Shown: in pieces, positions 13,682 to 50,862 of the stretch
How the letters are laid out: each line of letters opens with the position of its first letter
How positions within the stretch are numbered: position 1 is the stretch's first letter
Assembly: GCF_003590645.1 (NCBI RefSeq)
Contig: NZ_CP031834.1
Location: 1,612,501-1,676,500 of the forward strand
Source of the DNA: Mesorhizobium sp. DCY119
GTDB taxonomy: Bacteria; Pseudomonadota; Alphaproteobacteria; Rhizobiales; Rhizobiaceae
Length of the DNA stretch: 64,000 bases
Direction: 5' to 3'
The notes under the pieces: model-generated
What the model saw: only the letters and a program-made list of their open reading frames with translations
What the model was told of the DNA's origin: nothing
The model's database searches: none
Program-made: the position numbers and the translations under genes

Positions 13682-14872
13682 TTACCGGTCGAGCACCTGG
13701 CGAATCTCGACGATCTGGGAGCGGGCGCGCAGCAGATTGAAGCCCATCGTCGCCAGATGCGACGGGAAGATGAAGCTGGACTCGTTGCCGTTGGAGATTA
13801 TCCAGGGCTGCATGTTGAGCGCGTCGCGCATCTGGGTCTGCATCGTATCCCACAGCGTGGTGATGTTGCGCTCGCGGATGACCGCCGAAAAGTCCGTGCG
13901 GGTGGCGTGCAGCATCCCGTAATAGGCGTAGAGCTGGCCGTAGGCGAACCAGAAGCGGTCATCGGCGCGCGGATCGAACCAGCCGGCGTCGGAGGCCTCG
14001 AGCTGGCCGCGCAGAATGTCGGAGGTGGAGCCGATGTCGCCGGAAATGCGGTCGAGGAACTGGAGCAGGTTGTCGGCGCGCGCGTCGAAGGTCGCCTCGC
14101 ATTTCTCCAGGCTGGTATTGAAGGTGCGAAGCTTGGTGATCGCCTCGCGATAGACGCTGGGCGTCGGCCGGGTCGGGCCGCGCAGGCCGACATACCAGGC
14201 GTCCTCGTCCCAGGCGAGCGCGGTGCGTGCGTCCTGCAGGTTCTGGTCGATGCGCGAGGTGCCGCGTGCACGGCCAAGGGCGTCCACCAGCTCCGTCGTG
14301 GTGCGGCGCAGGACCTGATTGATGCCGAGCTGGAAGGCGGCCTTGTTGTCGAAGAAGGGCGTGTTGCGCCACGGCACGCCGAAGAAGCCCAGCTTCGAGG
14401 CAAGCATGGAGGAAATCCATGCGTTCCTGTTGACGTTGAAGTCGATGAGATCGGCCGAAACGGCGGCAATCTCGGAACGCTTGCAGGTTTGAGGCTGGGT
14501 CTGCGCGGTCGTCGTGCCGCTCGCGCCGCCTGTCGCGGGTTGTCCACTCTGGCCGGTGCCGGAGCTGTCCCCTGAAATCGGATCGCCGGCAACGACGTTC
14601 GTCGCCTTCGCGGTGGTGGAGGTGGCGGCTATCCGGGTCGGGTAGTCGGGATCGAAACCGTTCCACACCTGTGTGACGTAGAAGAAATAGCCGTAGAGGA
14701 AGACGATGCCGACCAGGATAAGCCCGAGCACGGCCCGCAGGATCAGCCCGCGATTGCCATACCAGCGGCCGGCCCACATGAAGGGCCACAACAGGATGCC
14801 GATGAGAAGGCCGATGCCGCGGCCGATCCATTGGAAGACCCAGGTGAAGAAGTTCACGATCGGATCAAGCAT
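13682..14872 (-). CDS. DUF2333-like inner-membrane protein
   Basis: 396 residues. One or two membrane helices lie near the N-terminus (about 15-65, including LILRAVLGLILVGIVFLYGY). A Thr/Gly/Ser-rich linker (about 85-125) and a large periplasmic domain rich in Trp and Arg (NRNAWISSMLASKLGFFGVP, ADDRFWFAYGQLYAYYGML) follow. I recognise it as resembling the DUF2333 family, whose function is unknown. The start is set behind AGGGG. It is the last gene of the minus-strand cluster beginning at 21143, 48 bases after the DUF6638-like gene, suggesting that it works with the ATPase and coiled-coil protein at the membrane. Confidence 0.7.
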   Translation of the reverse strand: MLDPIVNFFTWVFQWIGRGIGLLIGILLWPFMWAGRWYGNRGLILRAVLGLILVGIVFLYGYFFYVTQVWNGFDPDYPTRIAATSTTAKATNVVAGDPISGDSSGTGQSGQPATGGASGTTTAQTQPQTCKRSEIAAVSADLIDFNVNRNAWISSMLASKLGFFGVPWRNTPFFDNKAAFQLGINQVLRRTTTELVDALGRARGTSRIDQNLQDARTALAWDEDAWYVGLRGPTRPTPSVYREAITKLRTFNTSLEKCEATFDARADNLLQFLDRISGDIGSTSDILRGQLEASDAGWFDPRADDRFWFAYGQLYAYYGMLHATRTDFSAVIRERNITTLWDTMQTQMRDALNMQPWIISNGNESSFIFPSHLATMGFNLLRARSQIVEIRQVLDR

Positions 14873-14920
14873 CTGGTCCCCCTCGTAGCTGCAAAGCACT
14901 GGTGCCGGACGGGCGCCACA

Positions 14921-16213
14921 TCACGCCTTGTCCGACAGGCCGTAAAGTCGCGCGCGAAACGCATCCTTGTCTTTCAGATATGTGGTTTTCAAGAGGTCCA
15001 CAACATGGGATCGCCATGGCGCGGTGAAGCTCTCGTAATCCTTGTAGAAGCCCTGCTTGTTGAAAACATAGCGCGAGATGAAATCGGCCGGCACGAAATC
15101 CGAGATCAGGCGGTTGGTCAGCCAGGCGTCGGGATGGTCCGGCTTGGCGCGCACCACCAGAAAGCGGTGCAGCGGATCGACGTCATCGAGCTTGAGCTGG
15201 CCGAACTGCGCGATCTGGCGCTTGGCGGCATTGAGAAACGGGAAAGTGCCGTCGCGGTTGATCAGGTCGGCATGGCCGTGAATCCAGGTCTGGAGCCAGA
15301 CCTTGTCGGCATTGGCGAGACTGCGCTCGGGCTCTGACTGGCGGATAAGCGCCAGGATCGCCATTTCGGCGCGGTGTTCGAGATAGTTCGACGCCTCGAT
15401 CCACGAGGCGCGGGGCAGTTCGAGACGGCCCGTTGAGGCAAGGAAACGGAAGACGCGGTCGGCGTCGTTGATCGAGAGATAGCTGACCTGCCATGGCCGC
15501 GAGCGGCGGAAGCCGGGGGCTGACGGATCGCTGATAACGGTTGTCATGTCGGGATCGACAAAGACATAGAGACCGCCGAAATGGCTGGTCCAGTAGGCAT
15601 TGTGGCGGAAAATCACCTGATCCGGCACCAGTGCGTTTTCGCGGATATCGCCGGTGACTTTTGCCAGCTCCACCATGCGCTCCAGCATGGCGGTATCGCG
15701 CCAGGCGTCCGGCTCCTGCTTCAGCCGGTCGACCAGCTTGCCGAGTTCGGTCGCCTTGCCGAGCACGTCCTCGGCCGACAGGACGCGGAACTCGACCTGG
15801 TTGATGGACAGCAGGTCCTCGATGTCCTCGACCTTGGAGACCGAATCCTCGATCTCGCCGTAGATGACGTCCTTGATAGTCAGCGCGTCGATGGCGCGGG
15901 AGTTCTTGGTGAAGAACTCGTAGAGCAGCTGCGAGGTGTTGGAAAAGGCGGTGTGGACGACCGGCAGGTCGGCCTGCGCCGGGGTGAGGATGATGAAGCG
16001 GCGGTTGACCTCGTTGGGGTCGAGATAGAGCCGGTCGTCCAGTTCCTCGGCGATCTGCGGGGAAAACCCGGAGCGGTCGATCTCGAAGGATTTCAGCTTC
16101 GTCGGCTTCAGCCCGAACGCCTTCAGCGCCTTGTTGTAGCGCTCGATGAGATGCGGCTCCTCAACCGGCAGCAGGCGACCGTAGATGAGATCGTTGTCGC
16201 GGAGGAGGTCCAT
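14921..16213 (-). CDS. DUF6638-like protein of unknown function
   Basis: 430 residues, soluble, acidic, without signal peptide or membrane helices. It opens MDLLRDNDLIYGRLLPVEEP. I match it to DUF6638 from general appearance and context only; no catalytic motif is evident. It is encoded between the AAA ATPase gene (upstream, on the far side of the DUF559 cassette) and the DUF2333 gene, all on the minus strand. A longer in-frame reading to 16339 runs into the repeat at 16224-16272 and is rejected. Confidence 0.65.
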   Translation of the reverse strand: MDLLRDNDLIYGRLLPVEEPHLIERYNKALKAFGLKPTKLKSFEIDRSGFSPQIAEELDDRLYLDPNEVNRRFIILTPAQADLPVVHTAFSNTSQLLYEFFTKNSRAIDALTIKDVIYGEIEDSVSKVEDIEDLLSINQVEFRVLSAEDVLGKATELGKLVDRLKQEPDAWRDTAMLERMVELAKVTGDIRENALVPDQVIFRHNAYWTSHFGGLYVFVDPDMTTVISDPSAPGFRRSRPWQVSYLSINDADRVFRFLASTGRLELPRASWIEASNYLEHRAEMAILALIRQSEPERSLANADKVWLQTWIHGHADLINRDGTFPFLNAAKRQIAQFGQLKLDDVDPLHRFLVVRAKPDHPDAWLTNRLISDFVPADFISRYVFNKQGFYKDYESFTAPWRSHVVDLLKTTYLKDKDAFRARLYGLSDKA

Positions 16214-16223
16214 GGCGGTTATT

Positions 16224-16272
16224 CCTTCTCCCCGTTCACGGGGAGAAGGTGCCCGAAGGGCGGATGAGGGGC
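16224..16272. repeat. REP-like repeat, left copy flanking the DUF559 gene
   Basis: 49 bases, exactly the reverse complement of 16707-16755. It folds into two hairpins: CCTTCTCCCCG-TTCA-CGGGGAGAAGG and GCCCGAAGGGC. It lies 10 bases upstream of the DUF6638 start codon, so it is probably in that gene's 5' leader. Confidence 0.9.
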
Positions 16273-16283
16273 GGCACAAGCAT

Positions 16284-16700
16284 TCACGATATTTGCACTC
16301 CGGAGACGCTGGCCGGCACAAACCGCAAATCGGTAGCAACCATCTTTCTATTCAACCGGCCATCGAGTGCGGCAACAATCGTTTCAACGACCTGGCCGCG
16401 ATGTTTCAATACATCGACATGCCAAAACCGCAGAATTGACCACCCATTATTTGACATGGTTTCGTCTCTGATCCGATCTTTTAGTCTGCCCACATGTTGG
16501 CTGCCGTCCACTTCGATCACCAGATTTGCCTCTCGGCATGCAAAATCAGCAAAATATGGTCCGATCGGTAGCTGCCTTACGAATTTGTGACCGTTTAAGC
16601 GTCTGGCGCGGAGTTCGTGCCATAGTTTTTCTTCTGCTTCGTTTTCGACGCCACGAAGTTCCCTGGCTCTGGCTGTCTTTCCGGCATTACCGCCACGCAT
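16284..16700 (-). CDS. DUF559 protein, Vsr/PD-(D/E)XK nuclease-like
   Basis: 138 residues. The core matches the DUF559/very-short-patch-repair-like fold: LWHELRARRLNGHKFVRQ, then FADFACREANLVIEVDGSQH (an Asp...Glu-x-Asp arrangement consistent with a metal-binding nuclease core), then GWSILRFWHVDVLKH. Single-strand nicking is plausible but unproven. The start at 16700 is preferred; the in-frame extension to 16730 reads into the repeat. It is inserted within a minus-strand gene cluster and bounded on both sides by identical inverted repeats, which suggests a mobile or formerly mobile cassette. Confidence 0.85.
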   Translation of the reverse strand: MRGGNAGKTARARELRGVENEAEEKLWHELRARRLNGHKFVRQLPIGPYFADFACREANLVIEVDGSQHVGRLKDRIRDETMSNNGWSILRFWHVDVLKHRGQVVETIVAALDGRLNRKMVATDLRFVPASVSGVQIS

Positions 16701-16706
16701 CGCGCT

Positions 16707-16755
16707 GCCCCTCATCCGCCCTTCGGGCACCTTCTCCCCGTGAACGGGGAGAAGG
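16707..16755. repeat. REP-like repeat, right copy flanking the DUF559 gene
   Basis: A perfect 49-base inverted copy of 16224-16272, separated from it by 434 bases. It ends 9 bases from the stop codon of the AAA ATPase gene. It contains the same double hairpin. Confidence 0.9.
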
Positions 16756-16763
16756 AAGATTCC

Positions 16764-18674
16764 TCACGCATTCCAAGCCCCCTTGGCCTTCAATCCCTCG
16801 ATCTCGCGGATCGCCCGTTCGCGCAGTCTGGTGTCGCGGATCATCTTTTCGACGGCGGCGTCGTCGGAGCGGTCGGAGTAGCGGAATTCGGAATCGGCGT
16901 AGCGGTTGATCTCCTGCATGACCATGTCCATCGAAAACGGCCCGCGCAGTTCCTCGATCATGGCTTTCTTGTCATCGTAGCCCTTGTGCATGAAGGCTTC
17001 GGGCTTCTCGAACCACTCGTCGGGAAGCTCTATGTCCATGGCGCGCATCTTGATGGCGTCGGTGACGTTCTTGATGGCGCGGCCGGTGAAGCGTGGCTCG
17101 GCTTCCTTGATCTGGTGCAGATAGGTGCCGACATCGGCCATGGTCTTTGGCTCGCCATTCTCCTTCATGAAGCGGTCGTAGACTTTTATCAGCCCGTCCT
17201 CATGCGGCTTGGAATAGCCTTCATAGGCGTTCTCGACGGCGCGCTGGATTTCCTGCGCGGCGTAGAGATCATGTTCACCGAGAGGGATCTTGTGGTTCTT
17301 GCCGGCGAGAAGGACGAAGATGTCGATATAGTCGTCGCGGCTCTGCGGGCCGTCGACCAGCCAGCGGGCGCCGGCGCGCTGTCGCAGCGCGTCGTCGACA
17401 TTTTCGGGATAGTTGGAAAACATGCCGAAGGAGCAATTGCCGCGAATGACGGTGGAGGCGCCGGAAAAGGCTTCCATCAGCACGCCGGTGATTTCCTGCT
17501 GGCCCGCCGAGGCGCGGTCGTCGGAGCGTTTGGCGGCGACCTGGTCGATGTCGTCGACCGTGCCGAAGCCGATGGCGCGCGGGTTCAAGACATTGGTGAT
17601 GAACTGCTTGCAGTTCTGGCCGGACTTGCCCTGATAAGACGAGATCTGGTCGACGCCGAAATTCTCGTAGACGAACTGGTAGCCGGCGGTCTGGCAGTAG
17701 CCGTGAAGAAGGCCGGCGATCATCTGGATCAGCGTCGTCTTGCCGGTGCCGGGCGAGCCGTCGCCGATGAAGGTGAAGAGGAAGCCGCCGAGCTCGACGA
17801 AGGGGTTGAGCTCGCGGTCGAAATCATAGGCCATCAGCATCTTGGCGAGCTTGACCGACTGGTATTTGGCGATGTGATTGCCGACAACCTCGTCCGGCTT
17901 CTTGAAGGTCATCACCAGAGGCTTCGACTTCTTGCCCGGGGCAACATCAAAGCCGTCGATGGTGAAATCGTCGGCGTCGATGCGGATATGCGCGTTCTCG
18001 AAGGTGCCGAGACCGTCGAAGCGGCCCTTTCGCGTCAGCAGGCCATCGATGGCGGTGCGGGCGAAGGCGCGGGCGCGCGTCATCAGGTCGGCGTCGTCCT
18101 TGGCGCCGGAAATAGCCCGGTCGAGACCGGCGATCAGCGCCTTCAGCGCGTCCTGCGCCGTGTCGAACAGGAAATCCGGCTCGGCGATGTCATTGGGGGC
18201 CTCGCCATCGGCGTCGATGGTCTGGAGCAAATAGGAGGCAAGCGTGAAGGCCGAGACATAGGCCGAGGCTGTCAGCAGCTTCTTGAAATGCGTGGCTTCG
18301 TCGCCTTCCAGCGGCGCGCGAGCGTTCTTCGCCTGCAGGCTTTCGAGGTCGCCGCCGCGCGCGAAGACGTCTGCGACGGCCAGCGCGATGGCGAGGCCGC
18401 GGCGGGCGCGATAGAGCAGCGTGTGCTGCGAGATGCTCATCAGCCGGTCGTCGGGGCGGATCGCGCCGACGGTCTTCGCCAGCTCGATCTCGCGGGTCTT
18501 GCGCACCGAGCCGGTGGAGACAGTGGAGACGAAGCGGCGGTTGGTGCCGGCAAGTGCGGTGCCCGACTGGCCGGACGAATCCTCCAGCACGACGATGCGC
18601 GTGATGAAGCTCTGCGCGGTGGCGCGATGCTTTTCGATATCGGCTTCGGGAATGGTGGTCAGGCCGGTGTCCAT
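16764..18674 (-). CDS. AAA-family ATPase of an uncharacterised cluster
   Basis: 636 residues. A roughly 270-residue N-terminal region of unknown fold precedes a AAA ATPase module. The Walker A is GDGSPGTGKTT (about 304-314), the Walker B region IGFGTVDDIDQ (about 369-378), and an arginine-rich segment (DDALRQRAGARWLVDG) may hold sensor or finger residues. The C-terminal part is helical. The start MDTGLTTIPEA follows GGGAGGAAA. Genes for a coiled-coil protein and an unknown protein lie upstream, and DUF6638 and DUF2333 proteins downstream. The ATPase is the likely motor or remodelling component of that set; the substrate is unknown. Confidence 0.8.
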   Translation of the reverse strand: MDTGLTTIPEADIEKHRATAQSFITRIVVLEDSSGQSGTALAGTNRRFVSTVSTGSVRKTREIELAKTVGAIRPDDRLMSISQHTLLYRARRGLAIALAVADVFARGGDLESLQAKNARAPLEGDEATHFKKLLTASAYVSAFTLASYLLQTIDADGEAPNDIAEPDFLFDTAQDALKALIAGLDRAISGAKDDADLMTRARAFARTAIDGLLTRKGRFDGLGTFENAHIRIDADDFTIDGFDVAPGKKSKPLVMTFKKPDEVVGNHIAKYQSVKLAKMLMAYDFDRELNPFVELGGFLFTFIGDGSPGTGKTTLIQMIAGLLHGYCQTAGYQFVYENFGVDQISSYQGKSGQNCKQFITNVLNPRAIGFGTVDDIDQVAAKRSDDRASAGQQEITGVLMEAFSGASTVIRGNCSFGMFSNYPENVDDALRQRAGARWLVDGPQSRDDYIDIFVLLAGKNHKIPLGEHDLYAAQEIQRAVENAYEGYSKPHEDGLIKVYDRFMKENGEPKTMADVGTYLHQIKEAEPRFTGRAIKNVTDAIKMRAMDIELPDEWFEKPEAFMHKGYDDKKAMIEELRGPFSMDMVMQEINRYADSEFRYSDRSDDAAVEKMIRDTRLRERAIREIEGLKAKGAWNA

Positions 18675-18716
18675 CAATTTCCTCCCGGAAGCGCAGTGCT
18701 TTGAATGATCGAGATT

Positions 18717-18866
18717 CCCCCACTCCGGTTTGCTTCGCAAACCACCTCTCCCCCCTCCGGAGGGAGAGGAACCCAAGTTCTGTGAGGTCGCGATCTTGGC
18801 GATTGGCGTTTCCTCTCCCCCGGGCAGGGGGAGAGGTGGCGCGCGCAGCGCGACGGAGTGGGGGTG
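18717..18866. repeat. Composite inverted-repeat element, type B (copy 1)
   Basis: The left arm (about 18717-18770, starting CCCCACTCCGG) and right arm (about 18810-18866, ending CGGAGTGGGGG) are largely reverse complementary, around a roughly 40-base centre. Each arm includes a CTCTCCC...GGGAGAG palindrome. A single arm of the same family recurs at 50747-50804. It sits in the gap between the 18894 gene and the ATPase gene, inside the cluster. Confidence 0.8.
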
Positions 18867-18893
18867 ATTTCCTCGGCCGGAAGCAGATTTTCG

Positions 18894-20039
18894 CTAAACA
18901 TCTGAAATCACCTGTCCGTTCGACAGGATATGCACCTTGTAGCCGCCAAAGATCTTTTCCGTTTCGCCGGCGGCGTAGAGCGCCTGATAGGCTTCGTGCG
19001 GGATCAAAGCGTGTTTCTCGTAGTCGCTGACGCCCTGGCGGGCGGCTTCGAGATCGTCGGTATTGATGAAGAATTCCTGCGTTGCCTTCTCGCTCGACCA
19101 GAGGCCGCGGCGGCCGGGCTTTTCGCCCTTGGAATAAATCTCCTGGATGGTCCAGGTCAGCAGCCAGGCGTTTTCGGGCTTGCGCACCTTGGAAAGCACT
19201 TCGGCGACGGAAGAATTGTGCTCGGTGATGCCTGCCGAATAGAAGGGCCCGAGCACGACGCGCCGCAGCTGCTTGGGGTGCAGCGTCTCGAAATCCTTGT
19301 CGAGATTGTTGGCGATGGTGGCCGGCGACAGCGTGTAGGCGGAGTTCTTTTCGGTGAAATCGTCGAAGCGATGGGCAAGCTCTGGGTTGAGCAGTCCGTC
19401 GACGGGAAGCGGGATCTTCACCTTTTCGTTGAGCTTGCCGTCACTGGTGACAAGCTGCCTGACCATGCCGTCGGAAGAATCCTCCACCGTCGCCATGTAG
19501 ATCAGCGGCAGGTTGGCGCTGCCGTCGAAGCTTGCCCAATGGACGAGATAGTAGGGCCGCATGGTCTTCGGGTTGACTGAAACCTTGGCGGTCTGGGCCA
19601 GGAGAAACGGTCCAAAGACGGCGCCGTCTTCGACATCTTCCAGATAGAGCCGCTCGGCCATGGAGCGCTGGAGGGCCTGCGGAAACGCCTTGTGGCGCAG
19701 GATGAAATCCGCCATCTCGCCGCGCAGTTCCTTGGGCGAGGGGATTGCGGCGAGGCGCTCGGTGGCCGTGCGGCGGTCGTTTTCCAGTTCGAGAACGTTC
19801 TGGAAGATCGGAAAGCCGCTTTCGGCGCGCGAAATCTTGAAGGTCTCCATGAAGCCGAGGCGATTGCGCCAGCAGGAGAACGACTTCTCCAGCCGCGCTA
19901 TATATTCGGCGACGACCTTGGCGACGATGCCATGCCGGTAGAGCGGCGAGCGATCGTCGCGCATGAAGATTTCGAGACCGCTGAGGGCGGCGCGAATGGC
20001 ATCGAAATAGCGCGTGGCAGCGTCGGTCTCGGCGCTCAT
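18894..20039 (-). CDS. Conserved-looking protein of unknown function in the AAA/coiled-coil cluster
   Basis: 381 residues, soluble, no signal peptide. I do not recognise a family. It has a helical N-terminal third (YFDAIRAALSGLEIFMRDDR) and a beta-rich centre (YYLVHWASFDGSANLPLIYM). The start codon lies 15 bases after the stop of the coiled-coil gene, so the two are cotranscribed. Its position between the coiled-coil gene and the AAA ATPase gene suggests a shared complex. Confidence 0.7.
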   Translation of the reverse strand: MSAETDAATRYFDAIRAALSGLEIFMRDDRSPLYRHGIVAKVVAEYIARLEKSFSCWRNRLGFMETFKISRAESGFPIFQNVLELENDRRTATERLAAIPSPKELRGEMADFILRHKAFPQALQRSMAERLYLEDVEDGAVFGPFLLAQTAKVSVNPKTMRPYYLVHWASFDGSANLPLIYMATVEDSSDGMVRQLVTSDGKLNEKVKIPLPVDGLLNPELAHRFDDFTEKNSAYTLSPATIANNLDKDFETLHPKQLRRVVLGPFYSAGITEHNSSVAEVLSKVRKPENAWLLTWTIQEIYSKGEKPGRRGLWSSEKATQEFFINTDDLEAARQGVSDYEKHALIPHEAYQALYAAGETEKIFGGYKVHILSNGQVISDV

Positions 20040-20054
20040 GCGGGTATGCCGGGC

Positions 20055-21143
20055 CTAGGTCCGCACATAATCCGAGGCGTTGTGCTTCTTCAGCACTTCC
20101 TCGAAGCGGCGGGCGAAGGCATCGTCGGCAAGCTTCTTGCGGCGCTGGATGTCGGCGGTCGCCACCATGTTCTTCTCGTGCATTTCGAGAAGGTCACCGA
20201 TGTGCTTCTGCGCAGCGGCACCGATGCCGGCCATGGTTTCCTCGGCGGTGTTGTCGACCTGGCTGCCCAGCGTGTTGATCTTGTGGGCGACATCCTGCTG
20301 GGCGGCGGTCTTCAATGAGTCCTCAAGCGCCTTGTAGAGGACGATGCGTTGTTCGGTGTCGATGGTCAGCTTGTTGATCAGCGTGTTCTGCGCTGCGATC
20401 TGGTTGTTGAGCGAATCGACGAAGGTCTGGAACATCGAGGTGTAGCGTTCCAGCGTCTGGCTCTCGGCCAGTAGCTCCTGCTCCTTGGCCTGCTTCTCAT
20501 TGTATTCGGTCGCCAGCTTCGAGCGGTCGCCCTCAAGCTGGGTGCGCTCCTTCTGGCTGGTGGAGGCGGCGATCTTGTTCTCGATGTCGAGCAGCAGCGG
20601 GTTCAGCTCCTCGATGCGCTTCTGCGTGGTCTCGAGATTGGTCATCGTGACCTTGCGGCGCTCGATCACCTGGGCGAGGCTGGCCTCGGAGGTCTTGTAG
20701 CGGGCGTCGAGAACCTGTTTCTGCGCCTTCAGGATGCCGACGATGGTGTCGGACTTCGCCAGCAGCTCCTGAAGATTGCCGGCAAGCGACATGTTGCGGA
20801 CGCGGTCGGTGCGCATGCGCTGCTTCTTCTGGGCCGAAAAGATGCCGACGAAGCTTTCCCAGCCGGTAAAATTCTTCATGCTCTCGAACTCGGTGCCGAA
20901 GACGTTGGTGGCGTCCTCCAGTCCGATGATCAGGTCGGCAATGTTGCCCTCCATCACCTTCTGCTGCTTCAGCACATCCTCGATGCGGGCGTTCTCAATA
21001 TCGAAATCGGCGGAACCGATCTTCTGGTCGGAGGTGGCGAGCTTTTCCAGCACGGTGCTGGACTGGTCGATCTTGGTGCGCATGTCCTCGACGACCTGTT
21101 TGGTCTTCGCAATCTCGGCGTCGAAATTCTGCAAGGTCGCCAT
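20055..21143 (-). CDS. Long coiled-coil protein, first gene of the AAA cluster
   Basis: 362 residues, almost entirely alpha-helical with heptad-like patterns (for example TMTNLETTQKRIEELNPLLL and about 190-260 rich in E/K/Q). It has no membrane helix or signal. The overall look recalls TelA-like helical proteins and other scaffold proteins, but I cannot assign it to a family. The start MATLQNFDAEIA is behind GGAGGG. It is the first gene of the minus-strand series ending at 13682 and so probably sets the transcription unit. Confidence 0.7.
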   Translation of the reverse strand: MATLQNFDAEIAKTKQVVEDMRTKIDQSSTVLEKLATSDQKIGSADFDIENARIEDVLKQQKVMEGNIADLIIGLEDATNVFGTEFESMKNFTGWESFVGIFSAQKKQRMRTDRVRNMSLAGNLQELLAKSDTIVGILKAQKQVLDARYKTSEASLAQVIERRKVTMTNLETTQKRIEELNPLLLDIENKIAASTSQKERTQLEGDRSKLATEYNEKQAKEQELLAESQTLERYTSMFQTFVDSLNNQIAAQNTLINKLTIDTEQRIVLYKALEDSLKTAAQQDVAHKINTLGSQVDNTAEETMAGIGAAAQKHIGDLLEMHEKNMVATADIQRRKKLADDAFARRFEEVLKKHNASDYVRT

Positions 21144-21408
21144 ATTGTCCCTCCGGGTGGCCTGCTCAGGTCGGGCCAATATAGGGTTGGGCCGTATCGA
21201 TTGAAAGACGGCAGGCGCGCGTTTTGGGAGCAGTTGCAGCAATCTACACCGGATGGTTGATGCTGCCCGTGTCGCGCACAGATAAGTGAGCGGCGCGGCT
21301 CGCTCCGCCTTACCGCTTGAAACCACACCAAAATGGTGTTTGGCTTAAGGATACGAACGGCAAGAAATCGTAGCTACTGCCGCACAAGAATCACAATGGG
21401 AGAATTCC

Positions 21409-50746: not shown

Positions 50747-50804
50747 TCCTCTCCCCTTTTGAGGGGGAGAGGTGGCTCGGCGAAGCCGAGACGGAGTGGG
50801 GGTG
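50747..50804. repeat. Type B repeat, single arm
   Basis: TCCTCTCCCC...GGGGGAGAGGTGG followed by GCTCGGCGAAGCCGAG and ACGGAGTGGGGGTG matches the right arm of the 18717-18866 element. It lies between convergent apt and MaoC genes. Confidence 0.75.
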
Positions 50805-50862
50805 GGCCGCGCTATATACGATTGGGGAGAAGGTCGCGGCAGCGCCGAGCCCTAAATAGTTC

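Follow-up and report, generated by a model that had tools for sequence, protein, structure and literature searches.

We know of no mover for REPs without RAYTs, which are common in Alphaproteobacteria. I-Bth0305I is a Vsr-like homing endonuclease of the EDxHD family, for which an intron or intein is the usual context. In REPtrons (tnpA-REP), a small nuclease gene encoding a RAYT, an HuH tyrosine transposase, is flanked by dispersed REPs of its own class, and gene and REP are paired class by class, according to the consulted part of the source (PMC6006769). The GTAG and CGTC REP super-families consist of dispersed palindromes which carry a conserved motif at one end and are often arranged as inverted pairs; per the authors, CGTC repeats seem to have no dedicated transposase, and the propagator of CGTC and untagged repeats is left open in the section of the paper used here (PMC3733652). 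RIMEs (Rhizobium-specific intergenic mosaic elements) are rhizobial intergenic repeats of unknown function, and the excerpts of the two papers used here name no partner gene for them (PMC2573895, PMC2245857). Finally, the DUF559 protein VsrA of Caulobacter (CCNA_02930), with E73, D102, D115 and H119, was read as Vsr-like, and the consulted part of the report proposes a role in mismatch repair with a functional link to a methyltransferase, the gene itself being unlinked (PMC12907096).

The cassette and its nuclease

The window, which is the whole 64-kb stretch of DNA analyzed here, holds a 532-bp cassette (16224-16755) between the stop codon of the AAA ATPase gene upstream (PF00004, 16764-18668, minus strand) and the start codon of the DUF6638 gene downstream (PF20343, 14921-16213, minus strand), both belonging to the host cluster. 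It consists of a DUF559 nuclease gene (PF04480, E 5e-32; 16284-16700, minus strand, 417 bp, 138 aa, ATG at 16700) and two arms of 49 bases, which are identical and opposite in orientation, one 3' of the gene (16224-16272, plus strand) and one 5' of it (16707-16755, minus strand); when extended, the arms match over 54 nt at 98% identity. Each of these REP-A arms is composed of a 26-bp palindrome, CCTTCTCCCCG-N4-CGGGGAGAAGG (16224-16249 and 16730-16755), a small second hairpin, GCCCGAAGGGC (16251-16261 and 16718-16728), and an 11-nt tail, GGATGAGGGGC (16262-16272 and 16707-16717), and both tails are directed at the gene. The arm starts with CCTTCTCCCC, has neither a GTAG nor a CGTC tag at its foot, and folds with z -4.5, none of 200 shuffles being equally good. 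A sequence-only reading of this DNA had described a DUF559-like gene of 417 bp between perfect 49-bp inverted flanks with two hairpins each, and this description was borne out. Its spacing of 10 bases between the left arm and the DUF6638 start codon was also correct, but the right arm lies 8 bases from the ATPase stop codon, not 9. Two alternative in-frame starts of the gene, GTG at 16730 and ATG at 16715, both lie within the REP arm, and no further copy of the cassette palindrome with up to 3 mismatches was found in the 64-kb window (chance mean 0). The surrounding cluster (13682-21326) comprises the AAA ATPase, DUF6638 and DUF2333 together with two proteins that match no Pfam family (18894-20039 and 20055-21326).

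The residues E15, Q35, D44, E55, D57, H61, D67, R70 and R83 of the nuclease are conserved in 99-100% of 216 homologs, and they include the conserved acidic and histidine active-site set of a Vsr-like homing endonuclease (E15, D44, E55, D57, H61 and D67). Apart from the last D, which is one residue off, the E-D-D-H residues are spaced as in VsrA, taking the VsrA residues from the consulted part of that report. When the predicted model (pLDDT 83.9) was compared with known structures, it matched 3hrl, an endonuclease-like, DUF559-like protein that is also the single PDB sequence match (Z 13.5), the catalytic domain of I-Bth0305I (3r3p; Z 11.3, rmsd 2.9, 93 residues) and Vsr (1cw0; Z 9.5, rmsd 3.9, 122 residues), the next unrelated row being a mitoribosomal protein at Z 8.6. 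Using Foldseek, the best match was again 3hrl (E 1.4e-7), and 3r3p and 1vsr were found at E 9.3e-3 and 0.35, respectively. Judged from this model, the protein has the catalytic-domain fold of a Vsr-like homing endonuclease. There was no methyltransferase among the six window proteins scanned with profiles, which include five neighbors, two of them without any match.

Compared with the described systems, the cassette is REPtron-like in arrangement, with a small nuclease gene flanked by dispersed REPs of its own class and with class pairing, but it is not a REPtron by membership, because nuclease and REP tag both differ. Its nuclease is a PD-(D/E)XK-type DUF559 protein and not an HuH Y1 transposase, its REPs have GAGGGG-type tails and not a GTAG or CGTC tag, and the bracket is inverted at both ends. 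No match to PF01797 (Y1_Tnp, RAYT-type) was found in the own genome (such matches occur in 9 of 61 genomes); a RAYT of the own genome is thereby ruled out as the mover of these REPs, and one from elsewhere is a possible mover. Palindromes linked to DUF559 resemble those of the GTAG and CGTC super-families in being dispersed, but their common feature is a CTCCC/GGGAG stem, which in many cases is accompanied by a second hairpin. With I-Bth0305I, the cassette shares the catalytic-domain fold and the presence or absence at a fixed site, but its gene lies outside any intron or intein and is bounded by REPs. Vsr and VsrA have the same fold as the cassette nuclease and equivalent active-site residues, and the difference is that VsrA is read, in the consulted part of its report, as a mismatch-repair enzyme linked in function to a methyltransferase. 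The repeats also resemble RIMEs as rhizobial intergenic repeats, for which the excerpts used here name no partner gene.

Association and pairing of DUF559 genes with REPs

The association was scored as the best ungapped inverted repeat between the 250 bp upstream and the 250 bp downstream of the domain, with a threshold of at least 16. Among the DUF559 genes of relatives (74 of 77 matches in 34 genomes, own genome included), 42 of 74 reached the threshold, compared with none of 296 placements chosen at random within these loci; the other 32 have no flanking inverted repeat at this threshold, and L057, L070, L085, L112 and L117 are below it and also have no upstream CTCCC hairpin. Among the named loci, scored with slightly different flanks and without a separate control, 60 of 79 scorable ones reached it (L174, with too short a flank, was left out). 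A phylum-wide sample of 70 loci, the strong ones among the matches listed (5 from the same family, 17 from the order, 24 from the class and 24 from the phylum), showed a flanking inverted repeat in 47 loci versus 1 of 210 placements; 62 loci, versus 6 of 210 placements, had a CTCCC hairpin on one or both sides. The 74-, 79- and 70-locus counts are counts of loci, many of which share one site (52 of 154 loci are the ATPase/DUF6638 junction). With one locus per site, the inverted repeat was found at 88 of 137 sites and the CTCCC hairpin on either side at 123 of 137, versus 24 of 373 own control genes; in these counts, phylum loci were taken as separate without clustering, and 68 sites were defined from like flanks only, some of which may be one region (as in the G029 pair below).

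The controls point the same way. In 464 kb of own DNA (400 kb plus the window), only the window's DUF559 gene among 375 genes had a flanking repeat of at least 14 (0 of the 374 others), and PIN-domain genes, which served as a control of small cargo-like genes, had no flanking inverted repeat at the threshold in 29 loci (one of 30 was left out for its short flank). The own genome has five DUF559 genes, each adjoining a REP-like element by eye, and four of the five reach a score of 16; their elements follow one design (C-rich palindrome, second hairpin and G-rich tail) in different sequences, and at one of these loci (L003) the element is upstream only. CTCCC-type palindromes also occur at a GC content of 0.43-0.48 (L274, L276, L294 and L295). 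Chance palindromes are thus ruled out by the random placements and by the other own genes, and a peculiarity of one genus is ruled out by the recurrence of the association phylum-wide. The sequence-only reading made its proposal depend on DUF559 genes elsewhere also being bounded by such repeats, and they are, far beyond chance. This recurrence of DUF559 with matching hairpin repeats across many bacteria suggests a so far overlooked repeat-nuclease partnership. No report on a link between DUF559 and REPs was found in the open-access literature, which was the scope of the search, and a report elsewhere, in subscription papers or preprints, is possible.

Sequence comparison shows that nuclease clades have REP classes of their own. 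Over 99 sites, nuclease similarity and REP similarity were correlated (Mantel r 0.219, a value reached by none of 2000 permutations), and the nearest DUF559 at another site had a top-10% similar REP in 57 of 99, both values still including host relatedness; the same holds for the REPtron-like co-variation of gene clade and REP class that is seen here. With flanking copies removed, genomes that have the matching partner hold more class-A and class-F REPs than genomes whose DUF559 genes are others (one-sided p 0.006 and 0.004, respectively, uncorrected for phylogeny). In this copy-number test, the own genome (G000) was counted as an F-partner because one of its 28 class-F REPs, and no more than one, lies near any of its five DUF559 genes (L001). 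Exceptions are G034 and G005, with 58 and 35 class-F REPs and no F-flanked DUF559, and G001, with 26 class-A REPs and no A-flanked DUF559.

The REP core, GGGGAGAAGG-N6..24-GGATGAGGG, occurs at 48 places in the 4.84-Mb own genome, and the reversed pattern at none; together with the cassette arms, these places give dispersed REPs bracketing a gene, as in REPtrons. Seven gene-less inverted pairs, with members 89-137 bp apart, account for 14 of the 48, and the tails are outward in all seven. These pairs may be linked with RIME. The exact hairpin variant of the cassette has just two copies outside it (897878 and 4445033), and REP classes C, D and E have 0-1 matches each in the 464-kb sample of own DNA. 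Away from the DUF559 gene, the window also has an element of like design at 50764-50806, with 6 mismatches to the REP core of L003.

In E. coli K-12, ycjD is annotated as DUF559 and lies between sapF and fabI. On its 3' side, CCCCTCTGGGGAGAGGGTTAGGGTGAGGGG forms part of a 65-mer (L343 5198-5262, K-12 MG1655), for which the median number of places in an E. coli genome is 17, with any match in 5375 of 5426 genomes; the inverted partner at the ycjD end is weak (25 nt at 80%). This dispersed repeat is probably Box C. Two E. coli strains without ycjD did not provide clean empty sites: they have a TetR and an efflux gene before fabI, and their sequence in common with K-12 begins about 40 bases beyond the repeat. 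In one strain (L346), ycjD is annotated as an incomplete pseudogene, and IS1 is found at the same place in another.

Turnover at the junction and copies at other sites

DUF6638 was found in 23 of 61 genomes, and the stretch before it was read in 16 of 24 loci. ATPase and DUF6638 are separated by a gap of 10-20 bp in L123, L128 and L132, and this gap is filled by DUF559 and REPs in L119 (own), L120 and L124; L122 has DUF559 and REPs before DUF6638, with no ATPase found in its flank. Judged by eye, the slot (window 14921-18668) also holds toxin-antitoxin-like genes in other genera, at L121, L125, L126, L129 and L133, and a different pair of this kind at L130; the flank of L133 showed no ATPase, and the PIN gene of G033 (PF01850 match) is located before DUF6638.

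The junction was then compared in 110 Mesorhizobium genomes (of 117 with DUF6638), the own genome and G001; L368 and L406, with no ATPase in the stretch, were left out of the states. Among the 112 junctions, 25 have cassette A, 20 cassette B, 35 REPs without a gene and 30 are empty (7 of these keep one palindrome), so that DUF559 is present in 45 and absent from 65, the remaining 2 being unresolved. When arms were counted with up to 9 edits allowed, all 25 A cassettes had two A arms and no B arm, and all 20 B cassettes had two B arms and no A arm. Twenty-five of the 35 REP-only junctions keep just the REP-A arm on the DUF6638 side, which looks like gene loss, and two of the 35 are of class F by eye. 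The sister genome G001 has flanking proteins of 98-99% identity, yet a nuclease of 56% identity and a REP of a different class. Before the left arm of the 25 A loci there are 15 different lead-ins; empty junctions have a spacer unlike that of occupied ones, and visual inspection of the displayed junctions showed no target duplication.

In a tree built from the flanks (109 rows, five states; L411, with a short flank and a larger insert in the gap, was left out), at least 57 changes are required, compared with a mean of 62.5 after shuffling, and 7 of 200 shuffles were as low. The minimum is 35 changes for DUF559 presence and 15 between A and B, with 45 of the 106 inner branches open. Turnover at the junction is fast, although many forks of the tree have weak support and the same scatter of states would result from recombination in the flanks. 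A unit fixed in the ATPase/DUF6638 cluster is ruled out by the empty, REP-only and other-cassette states in relatives, and the sequence-only reading, which required that the cluster also exist without the unit, is upheld on this point. The locus thus shows a presence/absence polymorphism at one fixed site, as is known for Vsr-like homing endonucleases.

The same reading had considered a REP-mobilizing element of a different, Vsr-like type. Its non-RAYT, Vsr-like partner nuclease is backed by the association, by the class pairing and by the lack of a Y1_Tnp match in the own genome, but two observations speak against a freely moving element at this locus. The matches listed for 119 Mesorhizobium genomes include 25 relatives with at least 66% identity, every one of which adjoins DUF6638 (short fragments elsewhere may be missed), and the REP-only junctions mostly keep a single arm. 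Free movement was rejected as a general property of the window's clade. In other clades, DUF559 units probably do move to other sites, as far as related copies can tell. Rhizobium sp. CCGE 510 has 100% identical DUF559 genes on two contigs, and G028 has 91% identical ones at two places; in both pairs the common DNA ends at the REP or the REP tail, the left end in CCGE 510 being cut by the contig start. The flanks of a third pair (G029, 96%) also share a 1-kb block (88%, inverted), and this pair may be part of a larger duplication. A genome has up to 11 matches to the window's DUF559 among the matches listed for the 119 genomes, and 44 of 72,556 plasmid records match the protein, all below 60% identity.

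A homing-like reading and its rivals

The class-by-class pairing, the palindromes as unit ends and the homing endonuclease fold together lead us to read the 532-bp unit as a REP-bounded, homing-like nuclease cassette, in which a DUF559 protein with the Vsr/I-Bth0305I fold is the partner of the REP; we give this reading about an even chance. A large super-family of REP-like palindromes would have its partner nucleases in the DUF559 proteins; these palindromes have a CTCCC...GGGAG stem, usually a second hairpin, and then a GGATGAGGGG-, GGGTGAGGGG- or CAGAGGGGG-type tail. The nuclease probably nicks or cuts its own REP while the palindrome is in an extruded or single-stranded state. Repair of the break against a REP-flanked copy would carry the nuclease gene, in the fashion of homing, to sites that bear REPs or are orthologous, and the same repair may spread or homogenize the REPs. 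Gain, loss and swapping of the cassette at the junction are seen in its states, and their route would be either homing or ordinary recombination.

A transposon would explain several features in another way. Here, the REPs would be terminal inverted repeats, which the cassette indeed has with identical ends, DUF559 would be transposase-like, and tail-to-tail REP pairs without a gene, which occur in Mesorhizobium, would be MITE-like deletion derivatives. The CCGE 510 and G028 copies at different places, with common DNA stopping at the REP or its tail, fit this explanation, but the G029 pair may be a larger duplication, no target duplication was visible at the junctions displayed, the lead-ins before the left arm vary, and the 25 close relatives among the matches listed share one site. 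In addition, the gene-less REP pairs of the own genome face the opposite way. We consider a transposon unlikely at this locus and a possible mode for other clades. Because the clade keeps to a single site and yet appears, disappears and is swapped there, homing-like cassette exchange is preferred over transposition here, although ordinary recombination in the flanks could also give swaps.

The REPs could also be passive company, marking permissive intergenic spots where DUF559 cassettes merely survive, with no functional link between them. Such a slot would readily take the toxin-antitoxin-like genes that stand before DUF6638 in other genera, and REPs do occur at the junction without DUF559. 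However, PIN genes are not flanked by inverted REPs, REP class follows nuclease clade, and the association is phylum-wide, which makes mere company quite improbable. Least credible in our view is that the protein is a Vsr-like mismatch-repair enzyme, as proposed for VsrA in the consulted part of that report, and that the flanking hairpins only terminate or attenuate transcription. The E-D-D-H spacing and the fold match to Vsr are compatible with it, but it gives no reason for clade-specific REP classes in inverted orientation at both ends, the neighbors scanned include no methyltransferase, and genomes with up to 11 matches among those listed would be difficult to explain.

Beyond the window, we tentatively propose, at somewhat less than even confidence, that DUF559 is the driver of a third, RAYT-independent REP super-family across Pseudomonadota, in which ycjD and its repeat would be included, and that cutting its own palindrome both homes the gene and multiplies the REP. 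DUF559, a widespread nuclease family of unknown function, thereby gains a candidate substrate. If the proposal is true, a large share of short palindromic repeats would be explained, and DUF559 would have a role other than mismatch repair.
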